From positions 1 to 64,000 of the forward strand of contig JAMCWG010000116.1 in NCBI GenBank assembly GCA_023475235.1: a DNA stretch of 64,000 nt, given 5' to 3'. Below are positions 14,980-41,514 of this stretch, in pieces (the first letter of the stretch is position 1; the number at the start of each line of letters is the position of its first letter). The notes beneath the pieces are model-generated. The model did no database searches, was not told the origin of the DNA, and saw only the letters and a program-made list of their open reading frames with translations. Source of the stretch: Chloroflexota bacterium. Its GTDB lineage: Bacteria; Chloroflexota; UBA6077; FW602-bin22; JAMCWG01. The position numbers were made by a program, and so were the translations under genes.

Positions 14980-15182
14980 CCCCGCTTCTTCACGACGGGC
15001 ATCCCCACGGGCTGGCTGTGCCAACAGACAGGGATATGCGCCGGTAGCCGTTCACGGTGCGCCGCTCTCTCAGACAGAAGACATCTTTGGCCGAGTTGTA
15101 GGGCTTAGGCAAGCTGAATGGCCGGAATAGGTCGCCAGACTCGCCTGTGTGTCCAATTGATCTCCGAGGCGACTCTCGCCAG

Positions 15183-15220
15183 AGGCGAGTCGCCTGCGGA
15201 GACTGGCGAGCGACTCGCCT
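15183..15220. repeat. 11-bp perfect inverted repeat aggcgagtcgc/gcgactcgcct
   Basis: Arms 15183-15193 and 15210-15220. Confidence 0.7.
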
Positions 15221-20889: not shown

Positions 20890-22158
20890 CTAACGCACCC
20901 CACGGATTACGTCAACGCCAACATATGGCCGCAGCACCTCAGGCACCGCCACGCTGCCGTCAGCCTGCTGGTAGTTCTCCAGAATAGCGGCCAGGGTGCG
21001 GCCCACGGCCAGGGCAGAGCCGTTGAGGGTGTGCACAAACTCCGGATGGGCGCCCGGCGCTGGCCGGTACCGGATATTGGCGCGACGCGCCTGGAAGTCC
21101 TCGAAGTTGCTACAGGACGATATCTCGACGTAGCGGTCCTGGCCGGGGAGCCAGGCTTCGGGATCGAACTTCATCGTCGCCGAGAAGCCCAGATCGCCGG
21201 TGCACATCTGCACGATACGATAGGGAATGGCCAGGCGGCGCAGGACGTCGCAGGCATCGTCCAGCAGCTTTTCCAGCTCCTGGTACGATGTGGACGGCTC
21301 GGTGAATTTGACCAGCTCAACTTTAACGAACTGGTGGACTCGGATCATCCCGCGCGTGTCGCGGCCTGCGGCACCGGCTTCGCGGCGGAAGCAGGCGGTG
21401 TAGCAGGCGTACTTCAACGGCAGCACGCCGGCGTCCAGTATCTCCTGCCGGTGGAGGTTGGTCACCGGCACCTCGGCAGTCGGAATGAGGAACAGGTCGT
21501 CGACCTCGCAGTGGTAAGCATCCTCCTCGAACTTAGGGAGCTGCCCGGTGCCGGTCATGCTTTCCCGCCGCACCAGGTAGGGGGCCGCCACCTCCAGGTA
21601 GCCGTGCTCCCTGGAGTGCAGCTCGAGCATCCAGTCGATGATGGCGCGCTCCAGGCGGGCGCCCAGTCCCCTGAGAAAATAGAAGCGCGGCCCGGAGACC
21701 TTCACGCCGCGCTCGAAGTCGGCAATGCCCAGGCGGTCGGCGATCTCCCAGTGCGGGAGCGGCTCGAAATCGAAGGTGGGAAGCTCGCCGTGCCGGCTTA
21801 CCTCGATATTGTCCCGGTCATCCAGGCCGACGGGCACGCTGGGGTGGGGGAGGTTGGGGACCAGCAGCAGCAGCCCGTTCAGATCAGCGTCCACCTGGTC
21901 TACCCTGGCGTCCAGCTCCTTGATGCGGTCGCCCAACTGCCGCATCTCCGCGATCAATTCGGGCGGCTTCTGCTTCATACGTCCGATCTGCTGCGAGACC
22001 TCGTTGCGCCGTGCCCGCAGCGCCTCCACCTCGGCGAGCAGCTCGCGGCGCTCGCAGTCCAGGCGTAGTATCTCGTCGACAGGAGCTGTGTCACCCTTGT
22101 GGGCGACGCCCTCCCGCACCAGGTCGGGGTGCTCGCGGATGAAGCGCAGGCTCAGCAT
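20890..22158 (-). CDS. serS: Seryl-tRNA synthetase
   Basis: [63 protein letters not shown]; full length. Confidence 0.97.
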
Positions 22159-22225: not shown

Positions 22226-22417
22226 TCGAGGATTTAGGGCCTTTTCAAAGTCCGTTCATTCGGCTGCTCGTGGGGCTTACCTCACCCCCTGGCCCCCTCT
22301 CCGCGCGCGGAGAGGGGGCGGCCGAAGGCCGGAGGTGAGGTTAATGGCCGCTGGTAAGGCAATCGAAATGTTGTCTGCCTTCTGGTTGACGACTTTGAAA
22401 AGGCCCTGTCGAGGATT
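22226..22417. mobile_element. MITE-like element (copy 1): 17-bp TIR, 9-bp direct flanking repeats
   Basis: TIRs agggccttttcaaagtc (22236-22252) and gactttgaaaaggccct (22391-22407); TCGAGGATT at 22226-22234 and 22409-22417; internal GC-rich hairpin. Confidence 0.75.
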
Positions 22418-22465: not shown

Positions 22466-23971
22466 CTATCCCTGCGACCGGAGCTGAGGGAAGAGGATGA
22501 CGTCGCGGATCGAGTGCTGGTCGGTGAAAAGCATAGCCAGGCGGTCGACGCCGACGCCCAGCCCGCCGGTGGGCGGCATGCCGTGCTCCAGCGCCACCAC
22601 GAAATCTTCGTCCATCTGATGGGCCTCATCGTCGCCGGCAGCAGCGTCGGCGCGCTGCTGCAGGAAGCGCTCGCGCTGGTCCAGCGGGTCGTTCAGCTCG
22701 CTGAAGGCATTGGCTATCTCGATCCCGCCCACGAAGCCCTCGAAGCGCTCCACCACGCCAGGCGCGCCCGGCTTCTTCTTGGCCAGCGGCGAGAGCTCGA
22801 CGGGATAATCGAGCAGGAAGGTCGGCTGGATGGCCTTCGGCTCGACATATGTGTCGAGCAGCTCATCGATGAGCTTGCCGCGCGGCGTTCCCCGCACCAC
22901 GGTCAGTCTGGCCTCTACCATCCGCTTGGCCAGGGCATCGGCGGTGGGATAGCGGTCGTAATCGATGCCGCTCTCCTCAAGAATGGCCTCTCGCAGCGTC
23001 ACCCGCCGCCAGGGCGGAGTGAGGTCGATAGTATGGCCCTTCCAGGGGAATTGCAAGGTCCCCAGCACTTCCCGGGCGATAGAGGCCAGCATCTCCTCCA
23101 CGAGCACCATCATATCGTTGTAGTCGGCGTAGGCCTGATAGCACTCCATCATAGTGAATTCCGGATTATGGGTGGTGGAAACACCTTCGTTGCGAAAGTC
23201 CTTGCCGATCTCGTACACCCGGTCCAGGCCGCCGACGATGAGCCGCTTCAGGTATAGCTCGCTGGCGATGCGGAGGAACAGCCGCCGGTCCAGGGCATTA
23301 TGATAGGTCTCAAACGGACGGGCCGCCGCACCGCCGTACAGCGGCTGGAGAATGGGCGTCTCAACCTCGATGAAGCCATGCGTGTTCAGGTAGCATCGCA
23401 TCGCGCCGACGATCGCGCTGCGCGTCTGGAACACCTGGCGCACCGTTTCGTTGCTCACCAGATCCAGATAGCGCTGACGATACCGCGTCTCGACGTCGGT
23501 GAGCCCGTGCCACTTCTCCGGCAGCGGGCGCAGTGCCTTGGCCAGCAGCACGAACTCCTGGACTTGCAGGGTGACCTCCCCCGTGCGCGTCTGAAAAAGG
23601 GTGCCGCGCGCCCCGATGAAATCGGCGATGTCCAGGTCCGAGCGGAAGGACTGGTACCTGTCACCCATGACGTCCTGGCGAAAATAAAGCTGGATGCGGC
23701 CGCTGCCGTCCTGCACGTGGCAGAACGACGCCTTGCCCATGATGCGCATGCTGACGATGCGGCCGGCCAGGGAGACTTCACCGGCGCCGCCTTGCTCGAA
23801 GGCCAGCCGGGCCTCTGCGGCGGTGTGGGTGCGTTGAAAGCGCGGCGGGTACGGGTCGACTCCCTGCTCCACCAGCCGGAGCAGCTTCTGCAGTCGCTGC
23901 CCGCGCAGGTCGTCGTATTCTTCGGTAGTGGCCGCAGGGGCCGACTGGTCGACTTCTTCTGCGTGTGTCAA
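22466..23971 (-). CDS. lysS: Lysyl-tRNA synthetase (class II)
   Basis: SLAGRIVSMRIMGKASFCHVQDGSGRIQLY; FRNEGVSTTHNPEFTMMECYQAYADY; PPTGGLGVGVDRLAMLFTD. Confidence 0.97.
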   Translation of the reverse strand: MTHAEEVDQSAPAATTEEYDDLRGQRLQKLLRLVEQGVDPYPPRFQRTHTAAEARLAFEQGGAGEVSLAGRIVSMRIMGKASFCHVQDGSGRIQLYFRQDVMGDRYQSFRSDLDIADFIGARGTLFQTRTGEVTLQVQEFVLLAKALRPLPEKWHGLTDVETRYRQRYLDLVSNETVRQVFQTRSAIVGAMRCYLNTHGFIEVETPILQPLYGGAAARPFETYHNALDRRLFLRIASELYLKRLIVGGLDRVYEIGKDFRNEGVSTTHNPEFTMMECYQAYADYNDMMVLVEEMLASIAREVLGTLQFPWKGHTIDLTPPWRRVTLREAILEESGIDYDRYPTADALAKRMVEARLTVVRGTPRGKLIDELLDTYVEPKAIQPTFLLDYPVELSPLAKKKPGAPGVVERFEGFVGGIEIANAFSELNDPLDQRERFLQQRADAAAGDDEAHQMDEDFVVALEHGMPPTGGLGVGVDRLAMLFTDQHSIRDVILFPQLRSQG

Positions 23972-37701: not shown

Positions 37702-38796
37702 TTACACCACGTACTTCTTGACGGTATCCGGGTTCAGCTCAAGGCCTAGCCCCGGCCGGTCCTTGAACGGCGACCACATACCATTCTTCTGCTGGGGAAA
37801 GTCTACGAACAGGAGCTTGTCGTCGTCCTCCACCACGCGAAGGTACTCGACGACCTTCAGGTTTGGCGTGGCGCAGGCCAGGTGGAGATGCACCGTCTGC
37901 ACGGCGTGGGGCGCGACGGGCAGGTTGAATGCCTGGGCCAGGTGGGCCACCTTCATCCACTCGGTGATGCCTCCCACCCTGCCCACATCCGGCTGCACGA
38001 TGTCCGCGCCGCCCCGGGTAATCAGGTCCTTGAAGCCGTACTTGGTGTACTCGTGCTCGCCCGTCGCCACCGGTATGTCGATTGCCGCCGCCACCGCGGC
38101 CAGCCCGTCGATATCGTCGGCCAGCACCGGCTCCTCGAACCAGCCCACATTGTACTGGGCGAACTCACGGGCCATGTAGATGGCCTGCTTGGCGTAGTAG
38201 CCGTTGTTGGCGTCGATGTAGATCTCCACATCGTCCCCCAGGGCCTTACGCACGGCCGCCAATCGGTGGACGTCCTCCCGCTCGGCCTGGCCGAAGTCCT
38301 TGCCCACCTTCATCTTCACCCGCGGGATGCCCTGCTCTACATAGCCCATCTGCTCCCTTATTAGCTCTTCCTCGGTGAAATCGGTCCATCCCCCACTGCC
38401 GTAGATGGGCACGCTGTCGGTGTAAGGCCCCAACAACTGGTAGAGGGGCACCTTGTGGTACTTGGCCCGGAGGTCCCAGAGGGCGATGTCCACGGCGGAG
38501 ATGGCGCAGAAGGCGATGCCCTTGCGGCCGACCCCGCGCACGGTCCAGAACATCTCCCACCAGCGCTTCTCGATGAAGAGGGGGTCCTTGTCCAGCAGGA
38601 CGTCCTTGAGGGTGGTCTCGATGACGGCCTGGATGCCGCGATTGCCGGCGGCCCAGCCCAGCCCCTCGATGCCCTCGTCGGTCAGGATGTGCACGAAGCA
38701 AATGCTGCGCCTGGTGCCGGCCTTGAGAATTGTAGCGTCCATGATCCCTTTACGGGGCAGCTCGATGAAGGTGGTGCGAACGTCGGTGATCTTCAC
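37702..38796 (-). CDS. Enolase-superfamily (mandelate racemase-like) protein
   Basis: VKITDVRTTFIELP; VKMKVGKDFG; IDANNGYYAKQA; WFEEPVLADDIDG; VATGEHEYT. Confidence 0.88.
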   Translation of the reverse strand: MKITDVRTTFIELPRKGIMDATILKAGTRRSICFVHILTDEGIEGLGWAAGNRGIQAVIETTLKDVLLDKDPLFIEKRWWEMFWTVRGVGRKGIAFCAISAVDIALWDLRAKYHKVPLYQLLGPYTDSVPIYGSGGWTDFTEEELIREQMGYVEQGIPRVKMKVGKDFGQAEREDVHRLAAVRKALGDDVEIYIDANNGYYAKQAIYMAREFAQYNVGWFEEPVLADDIDGLAAVAAAIDIPVATGEHEYTKYGFKDLITRGGADIVQPDVGRVGGITEWMKVAHLAQAFNLPVAPHAVQTVHLHLACATPNLKVVEYLRVVEDDDKLLFVDFPQQKNGMWSPFKDRPGLGLELNPDTVKKYVV

Positions 38797-39187
38797 AGCA
38801 AGCTCCTTTTCGCCTTGCGTTTTTCTTCGCTGGGGCTCTGGGAAAAAGGGAGATGGCGGGTCGCGCTGGCGTCCTGTGATGACCATAGCATATGCTTCGA
38901 CGCTTATGCAAGTATTCTGGCCTGCGGCAATTCGCCGAAGGGCGACGTATTGCATGCCACCGTTCCAGCAATTAGAATAGCTCGAAATGGACCTGGCTGA
39001 GGCGGCGAGGGGCCGTGAGAGCACGATTTCGCGCACTATTGTGCTTGAGCGTCCCTGATATCGCTGTGTATGCTGCCCACTCAGCCGGGAGTGGAGGCCG
39101 CACGACCGCCGCTGGGCGGGGAAAGGGTCTGCTCTTAAAATAGCGAAGCATTTTCATCCGCGGTGGTGTCCCAAAGGAACATGGGAA

Positions 39188-39343
39188 CTTTTCATTGTCG
39201 CCAAGCGGTAGCCTTGTGACATATGGTATGCCTCGCCCGCGGCGATGAACCTCACCTCCGGCCTCCGGCCACCCCTCGCCACGGCGAGGGGCCAGGGGGT
39301 GAGGTAAACCACATGGGCAGCCGAATCGCCGGACAATGAAAAG
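39188..39343. mobile_element. MITE-like element (copy 2, inverted relative to copy 1)
   Basis: Terminal repeats cttttcattgtc (39188-39199) / gacaatgaaaag (39332-39343); interior homologous to 22241-22402 when reverse-complemented. Confidence 0.7.
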
Positions 39344-39387
39344 ACCCCGGGGCGTGGAGTAGGCGTCTTGACGACGAGGAGACCTGG

Positions 39388-41514
39388 ATGATCCACCGAA
39401 GTCCCTCATCTGCGGCCGCTGGCCTGGCCGTGTTGCTGATAGCGCTTTCCGTGTGGGGCGGGTCGCTCGGATACGCGTCGCCGCCAGCGCCGTCGACGCC
39501 TGAGCAGGCCTCTCCCTCGCCCGCCAGGACCGGGCACCCGAAGCTGGACTCGGCGCTCGCTGCCCTGGTCGATGCTTATCAACAGGGAGGAGCGGCACGG
39601 GCTCGCGCCCTGGCAGAGGCAAGCGGGCTTCGACTGCAGGATACCAGAGTGCGCGTCATCGTGGAGGCAGCAGACCCGGCCGGGTCCGCCGAGCCGGCGA
39701 CCAGGGCTGCGGGAGGCTCGGCGATCGTGAGCTACGGACGGCTGGCGCGTGCTGAGGTGCCCATATCCCAGTTGACAGCGCTGGCCGAGCAGCCGAATGT
39801 GCGGAGAGTGCGACGTCCGCTCCGGCCCACGGCCGTGGCTACCGGCCAGGGAGTGGCCCTGAGCGGCGCCGACGTCTGGCAAGGGGCAGGCTACAACGGC
39901 GCGGGTGTAAAGGTAGCCATTGTGGACCTGGGCTTTCAGGGCTACACCTCTCTGCTGGGCACCGAGTTGCCGGCCACCGTGAACACCGCCTGCACACAGC
40001 AGCCACTGGAGAATGGAGAAAGGCACGGCGCGGCGGTGGCCGAGATCGTCCACGATATGGCACCCGCGGCCTCACTCTACCTGGTGAACATCAATGACGA
40101 AGTCGACCTGGGCAATGCCGTCGACTGCTTGATTGCCGATGGTGTTTCGGTGGCCAATCACTCGGTCGCCTGGGGGTACGAAGCGGCCGGCGACGGCACG
40201 GGCGTGGTGAACGGCATCGTCAACCGGGCGGTGAGTGGCGGCATCTTCTGGACCAACGCCGCCGGCAATTACCAGAAGAGTCACTGGGGAGGGACCTGGA
40301 GCGATCCCGACGGCAACGGCTGGCTGAACTTCGCCGCCGCCGACGAGATCAACACCATTTACGCCGGGGGAGACACCTGCGTCTTCTTGCGCTGGAACGA
40401 CCATTGGGGCACCTCCAGCAACGACTATGACTTGTATTTGTTCCCGTCTGGCCTCGCCCCGGCATACGATAGTTACGGCAATGTCATCAACGCTACGGCG
40501 ATGAGCACTGACTATCAGAATGGGACGGGCGACCCGCTGGAATGGTTATGCGCGAATGTCTCGGGCGGATACTATGACATACGCGTCAAACGGGCCAATG
40601 CCAATGGAGCTTCAACCTTTGATCTGTTAACTTACGGGAATACACTGAAGTACCAGACGGCCGCCGGTAGCCTGCCCAATCCGGCCGACAATGCCTCGCC
40701 GGGGATGGCCAGCGTTGGAGCGGTGCCGTGGAGCAGCCCCACCAGCTTGGAGTCGTTTTCCTCGGAGGGTCCCACGACGGACGGGCGCATCAAGCCCGAC
40801 CTGGCCGGGCCCGACGGCGTGAGCAGCATAGCATATTCCGGCAGCTTTTACGGCACCAGCGCCTCGTCTCCGCACGTGGCCGGCGCGGCCGCGCTGGTGA
40901 AGCAGGCATTCCCGGCCTACACTCCCGCCAATATCCGCGCATACCTGGAGAGCACGGCCACGGACCTCGGGACGCCCGGCAAGGACGACCTATTCGGTGC
41001 CGGTCGCCTGCTGGTGCCGGCCCCGATTACGGGCACCGTTGCCATCGGCGGCCACGTCGGACTGCAGGGCCGGCCTGCGCCGCCCAGCAGCCAATGGGTG
41101 ATCACGGCCACCCTCGGCATATATCCCCCGGGCGGCGCTGCGCCATCCAGCGTGTACACCCCTACCACCGATGCGTCGGGCAATTTCACTGTTACCACGG
41201 GCATCACCTACACAAATTCGGCGCCTGGGATGTACGATGTGCGGGTGAAGGGGATCAATACGCTGGCCCGCCGGCTGCTCAACCAGCCTATGACCAGTAC
41301 CCACCGGCTCCTTGATTTCGGCACCCTCAAAGAGGGCGACGCCGACGGCGATAACTATGTCAATATCACGGACTTCTCGGTGCTCCGCAGCGGCTTTGGG
41401 CTGTGCCAGGGGAATGCCGGCTACGATCCCCGCACCGACTTCAATCAGGACGGATGCACCACGATCCTCGACTTCTCGCTGCTGCGCACGAACTTCGGGC
41501 AGGCGAGCGAGTAA
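39388..41514 (+). CDS. Secreted S8 (subtilisin-like) serine protease with C-terminal dockerin-like module
   Basis: VKVAIVDLGF (Asp), ERHGAAVAEIVHD (His), FYGTSASSPHVAGAAALVK (Ser); C-terminus GDADGDNYVNITDFSVLRSGFG...DFNQDGCTTILDFSLLRTNFG. Confidence 0.88.
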   Translation: MIHRSPSSAAAGLAVLLIALSVWGGSLGYASPPAPSTPEQASPSPARTGHPKLDSALAALVDAYQQGGAARARALAEASGLRLQDTRVRVIVEAADPAGSAEPATRAAGGSAIVSYGRLARAEVPISQLTALAEQPNVRRVRRPLRPTAVATGQGVALSGADVWQGAGYNGAGVKVAIVDLGFQGYTSLLGTELPATVNTACTQQPLENGERHGAAVAEIVHDMAPAASLYLVNINDEVDLGNAVDCLIADGVSVANHSVAWGYEAAGDGTGVVNGIVNRAVSGGIFWTNAAGNYQKSHWGGTWSDPDGNGWLNFAAADEINTIYAGGDTCVFLRWNDHWGTSSNDYDLYLFPSGLAPAYDSYGNVINATAMSTDYQNGTGDPLEWLCANVSGGYYDIRVKRANANGASTFDLLTYGNTLKYQTAAGSLPNPADNASPGMASVGAVPWSSPTSLESFSSEGPTTDGRIKPDLAGPDGVSSIAYSGSFYGTSASSPHVAGAAALVKQAFPAYTPANIRAYLESTATDLGTPGKDDLFGAGRLLVPAPITGTVAIGGHVGLQGRPAPPSSQWVITATLGIYPPGGAAPSSVYTPTTDASGNFTVTTGITYTNSAPGMYDVRVKGINTLARRLLNQPMTSTHRLLDFGTLKEGDADGDNYVNITDFSVLRSGFGLCQGNAGYDPRTDFNQDGCTTILDFSLLRTNFGQASE

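Follow-up and report, generated by a model that had tools for sequence, protein, structure and literature searches.

An element pair with matched arm changes

Two short sequences in a 64,000-nucleotide stretch of a Chloroflexota genome (the window) are closely related, and their arms differ between the copies on both sides with pairing kept, which raises the question of what drives such paired changes. The original prediction read them as compensatory and suggested that it is the fold as such that is copied or under selection, as in REP/BIME-like elements or structured mobile RNAs. In a BLAST-type comparison of the reported stretches the two copies align end to end (75% identity, E=3.6e-22), and the arms described for copy 1 (CTTTTCAAAGTC/GACTTTGAAAAG) and copy 2 (CTTTTCATTGTC/GACAATGAAAAG), as well as the inner stems (CTCTCCGC.../CTCGCC...), are exact. 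The alignment therefore stands, whereas the limits of both elements had to be redrawn (Table 1): position 39188, which had been taken as an end of copy 2, is internal. The inner arms of copy 2 are 88% complementary, and its 59-bp extension is also the true outer end of four other elements (L008, L009, L011, and L021). Perfect 9-bp duplications lie beyond this extension in L008 and L011, so the outer end of copy 2 is real.

Table 1. Positions of the two elements and their parts in the window.
Feature	Position	Strand	Remarks
Putative MITE copy 1	22236..22407	+	172 bp; serS (20890-22158, -) and lysS (22466-23971, -) on either side
Copy 1 left terminal inverted repeat, AGGGCCTTTTCAAAGTC	22236..22252	+	17 bp, 100% complementary to 22391-22407
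Copy 1 right terminal inverted repeat	22391..22407	-	17 bp, perfect
Copy 1 left 9-bp target duplication, TCGAGGATT	22226..22234	+	exact
Copy 1 right 9-bp target duplication, TCGAGGATT	22409..22417	+	exact
Copy 1 palindromic core, TTACCTCACC...GGTGAGGTTAA	22277..22344	+	repeat also found alone and in other genomes
Copy 1 inner hairpin module, CTCTCC-GCGCGC-GGAGAG type	22292..22319	+	
Putative MITE copy 2	39124..39348	-	225 bp; flanked by MR_MLE gene (37702-39036, -) and S8 peptidase gene (39388-41514, +)
Copy 2 extended end, AGGGTCTGCTCTTAAAATAGCG...	39124..39182	+	59 bp, outside the arm first described
Copy 2 inner end box, CTTTTCATTGTC	39188..39199	+	arm first described
Copy 2 other terminal inverted repeat, GGGGTCTTTTCATTGTC	39332..39348	-	
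Copy 2 palindromic core	39247..39308	-	
Copy 2 inner hairpin module, CCCCTCGCC-AC-GGCGAGGGG type	39272..39291	-	
Copy 2 left target duplication, GGGCGGGGA	39114..39122	+	
Copy 2 right target duplication, GGGCGTGGA	39350..39358	+	8/9 match to GGGCGGGGA

A family of elements with ISAs1-type ends

The genome (2.85 Mb in 196 contigs, 75% complete) contains 64 BLAST matches to copy 1. A search for the 17-bp end with up to three mismatches returned 94 matches, compared with seven for the reversed control, so a chance origin of the ends is excluded. These ends (YAGGGCCTTTTCAAAGTC) were paired into 31 elements, one of which is a resident IS; about 30 are putative MITEs. An exact 9-bp duplication at one fixed offset accompanies 14 of the 31 elements and none has an exact duplication of 10 bp or more. 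When small offsets were allowed, at least eight of nine positions matched in 20 of the 31 (shuffles treated in the same way: mean 0.77, maximum 5), and a clear duplication was not found in 11. The putative MITEs are 149-588 bp long, are mostly occupied by palindromes, and lack a transposase gene. A search for transcription signals gave only weak consensus matches: near copy 1 a single promoter-like site, and near copy 2 two sites resembling terminators.

The intact resident IS is located on contig C11 (G000, C11:11656-12926) and has AGGGTCATGTCAAAGTC at both ends, near-identical to the MITE ends. Its transposase of 405 amino acids matches the ISAs1 family (NF033564, E=2e-51, 175 bits against a cut-off of 70; PF13808, E=7e-18). 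Five putative MITEs (L003, L006, L011, L030, and L016) combine the exact end of this IS with a different end at the opposite side. At one locus on the same contig (L003, 1492-2945) an element is adjacent to the ISAs1 IS and has a target, GCGGCCGGT, in common with it, and the left end of the element is the IS end. At three positions the resident IS end departs from the common MITE end, so that the enzyme responsible for moving most copies may be missing or unassembled in this 75% complete genome.

The part of the original prediction that called the elements mobile is borne out by their transposon ends, target duplications, and unrelated flanks among copies, and by a resident transposase of the matching family. 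Terminal inverted repeats, a duplication of fixed length, short gene-less bodies, and a related autonomous element are what characterizes MITEs, and assignment of the family to this class follows, at the level of sequence, from its ends and 9-bp duplications, the near-identical ends of the resident IS, and the same end in other Chloroflexota. We thus consider it highly probable that an ISAs1-type family of MITEs includes both window copies as non-autonomous members, and that their arms are variant ends and their interior is a captured modular palindrome. As end identity and the duplications suggest, an ISAs1-family DDE transposase would recognize the YAGGGYCTTTTCAWWGTC ends and insert the element with duplication of a 9-bp target. 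This enzyme would probably be supplied in trans by the intact IS on contig C11 or by a relative.

Distribution in other Chloroflexota

A scan of public genomes for the 17-bp end returned many records, with chance matches among them. Paired ends occur mostly in records labeled Chloroflexi/Chloroflexota or Dehalococcoidia. In other Chloroflexota the end AGGGCCTTTTCAAAGTC bounds 17 further putative MITEs and two ISs (L157 and L323), in which fragments of an ISAs1 transposase were identified (E=4e-19 for L157; E=3e-21, 76 bits for L323). The transposase frame of both ISs (L157, 3239-4434; L323, 1501-2695) is broken at an A-run whose length differs between the two (A6, A7), and the break could stem from slippage, from decay, or from an error of assembly. 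Duplications matching at eight or more of nine positions flank 12 of the 18 paired elements from these genomes (shuffled mean 0.74).

The interiors of these elements are unrelated to those of the window copies and belong to several palindrome types. Because the interiors differ completely and the ends are kept, conservation lies in the ends rather than in an interior fold. The ISAs1-type shell of some other Chloroflexota surrounds paired CGTCATTCCCGCGAAAGCGGGAATCCA units that fit the published layout of CGTC-tagged REPs (PMC3733652). Such elements were considered as vehicles of these REPs and rejected: among about 30 REP loci of three genomes the shell is present on both sides only in L310, L319, and L321, most sampled units lie outside any shell, and capture of existing repeats is more likely. 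We found no publication in the open-access literature that combines ISAs1, MITEs, and Chloroflexi.

Arm changes follow end types

The arms of the family comprise few end types, foremost CAAAG and CATTG. Three elements (L008, L098, and L112) have one end of each type. L008 has a perfect duplication, CCGGTTATG, and thus appears to have moved with mixed ends; since several mixed-ended elements, among which we count those with the IS end on one side only, have perfect 9-bp duplications, pairing of the arms is not needed. The change described as compensatory is therefore better viewed as a variant end sequence, CAAAG or CATTG, that is not always paired within an element, and the arm changes would be end variants that can be mixed within one element.

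Mismatches between the arms of an element are nevertheless fewer than in shuffles (34; shuffled mean 51.6; fraction 0.0002), which shows that the ends have to some extent evolved jointly. Specificity of the transposase for both ends explains this, and selection on structure could add to it. Across arm positions in this genome, 11 have changed on both sides and still match, compared with 34 that are mismatched; in the other genomes the respective numbers are 0 and 14. Joint change is what one would expect of two ends that a single transposase recognizes, and a fold need not be invoked.

Homogenization of the arms by template switching (quasipalindrome correction) could have produced the two-base paired change of copy 2 in a single event, neither ends nor fold being under selection. 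Compensatory changes of several bases in hairpins can arise in this way (PMC8794818), and another study reports arm homogenization and spacer inversion through switching between inverted repeats (PMC8604942). Within this family the core is inverted between the inner arms in L013 and L024, and the inner modules resemble switch products; template switching may have acted in these elements. As the source of the arm change it is unlikely, however: the CATTG-type end recurs with different interiors (L104, L110, L113, and L025), so that it behaves like an end type that is inherited, and many arms are still mismatched.

Paired changes could also be driven by selection on folded RNA or DNA, be it a mobile structured RNA or a site bound by protein as in BIMEs, a reading that we rate as very improbable. 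Both copies fold better than all dinucleotide shuffles (z -6.8 for copy 1 and -6.0 for copy 2), and most of the interiors from other genomes are likewise unusually foldable, but inverted repeats fold by construction and those interiors differ wholly between genomes while the ends are kept. In a 14-copy alignment five arm pairs have changed on both sides, compared with 2.2 in shuffles. These pairs come from few sequences, however, and are to be set against the mixed-ended elements with perfect duplications. The core stem (ACCTCACC/GGTGAGGT) shows no covariation in the same alignment; because it is invariant, it is uninformative either way. Membership in a known RNA family was rejected, as no Rfam match reached the gathering score in the window, L041, or L022. 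Selection or copying of the fold as such is consequently not supported, in view of the mixed-ended elements, the excess of mismatched over co-changed arm positions, the invariant core stem, and the exchanged modules described below. A selected RNA or DNA fold behind the paired changes is neither needed nor supported.

That a RAYT (Y1) transposase mobilizes the elements as a REP/BIME family is scarcely credible: the genome has two RAYT-like genes, but they are flanked by other repeats, such as GTAGGGGCG, and the long terminal repeats and 9-bp duplications of the present elements point to a DDE transposase. These REP-associated tyrosine transposase-like genes (L289, 1090-1755; L290, 1147-1716) lie beside GTAGGGGCG-type or GGGCGATCACCAGG repeats, and their NCBIfam matches (59.9 and 67.1 bits) fall below the curated cut-off of 80. 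Neither a GTAG nor a CGTC tag was found in the window MITE.

Interior palindromes are modular

Under the preferred reading, that of non-autonomous elements with variant ISAs1-type ends, the interior would be a captured palindromic repeat (ACCTCACCCC...GGGGTGAGGT), and its central hairpin an exchangeable module, one that lengthens, shortens, and inverts. Between fixed flanks the inner module measures 18, 19, 24, 31, 51, 114, 126, 162, 181, 194, 221, 311, or 440 nt (a 362-nt match of the module search was left out as unrelated sequence). The internal stem reported to vary while staying paired corresponds to the 18- and 24-nt forms. The 51-nt module contains both of these simple hairpins, joined by a third hairpin; as this intermediate holds both, the stems are hairpin blocks that were exchanged, as opposed to sequences that compensated point by point. 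Modules probably change through template switching or slippage during replication at inverted repeats, as their forms suggest.

Palindromes of the ACCTCACCCC...GGGGTGAGGT type without these ends occur in other genomes of the order, class, and phylum. At one locus (L071, 1316-1453) a CCCCACCCC-type palindrome related to the core lies within another kind of MITE-like inverted repeat (GTGCTAGTGGGTCACGCTGCA). In a genome of the same order (L072, 1501-1600 region) the core palindrome is present in tandem, apparently within coding sequence. These occurrences are most simply explained if the transposon shell captured palindromes that already existed.

Outside the putative MITEs, too, short GC palindromes (TCGCCnnnGGCGA units, frequently nested) form arrays, at 15130-15219 of the window and elsewhere in its genome (L254-L288); one of these (L268) is close to a transposase gene. 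With up to two mismatches TCGCCnnnGGCGA units have 23 sites, compared with none for the reversed control. A tentative and somewhat doubtful idea is that MITE interiors serve as a nursery, in which GC-rich hairpins of about 14-28 bp (TCGCCnnnGGCGA type) would insert into, or arise from, one another to form arrays of 18-440 nt inside a single MITE frame and would also spread independently in the genome. Iterated template switching or some enzyme would be candidate mechanisms for such spread. The CCTCACCCC motif was not found in the open-access literature searched.

Comparison with known elements and implications

The elements are most like members of the ISAs1 family (NF033564; PF13808 and DDE_Tnp_1), given the near-identical 17-bp ends of the resident IS and the 9-bp duplications, and ISs of other Chloroflexota share the same end and have ISAs1-like transposases. 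They differ from an ISAs1 IS in that they are without a transposase gene and have a palindromic repeat as interior, so that they do not correspond to an internally deleted IS. Bacterial MITEs such as Correia/NEMIS, ERIC, RUP, and Chunjie are similar in size (~150-600 bp), in having terminal inverted repeats, and in being noncoding, foldable, and, as in the window, intergenic, but their end sequences and interiors are different. Palindromic interiors are shared with REP/BIME elements and CGTC-tagged REPs (PMC3733652), whereas here the mobile unit would be the transposon shell. Double-hairpin and repetitive hairpin elements of mitochondria (e.g., PMC2800124) likewise consist of short hairpin units in arrays, a likeness by resemblance alone, and the present units are inside MITE cores of a bacterial genome.

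The two copies illustrate clearly how RNA covariation can be mimicked by the ends of a transposon and by modular hairpins, a trap for structure-based scans. The ISAs1-type MITE shell is shared among Chloroflexota and encloses palindromic interiors of unrelated sequence. Of greatest remaining interest are the graded nested arrays and their relatives outside the MITEs. With such a graded series, ideas on how short palindromes of bacteria originate can be tested by comparison.
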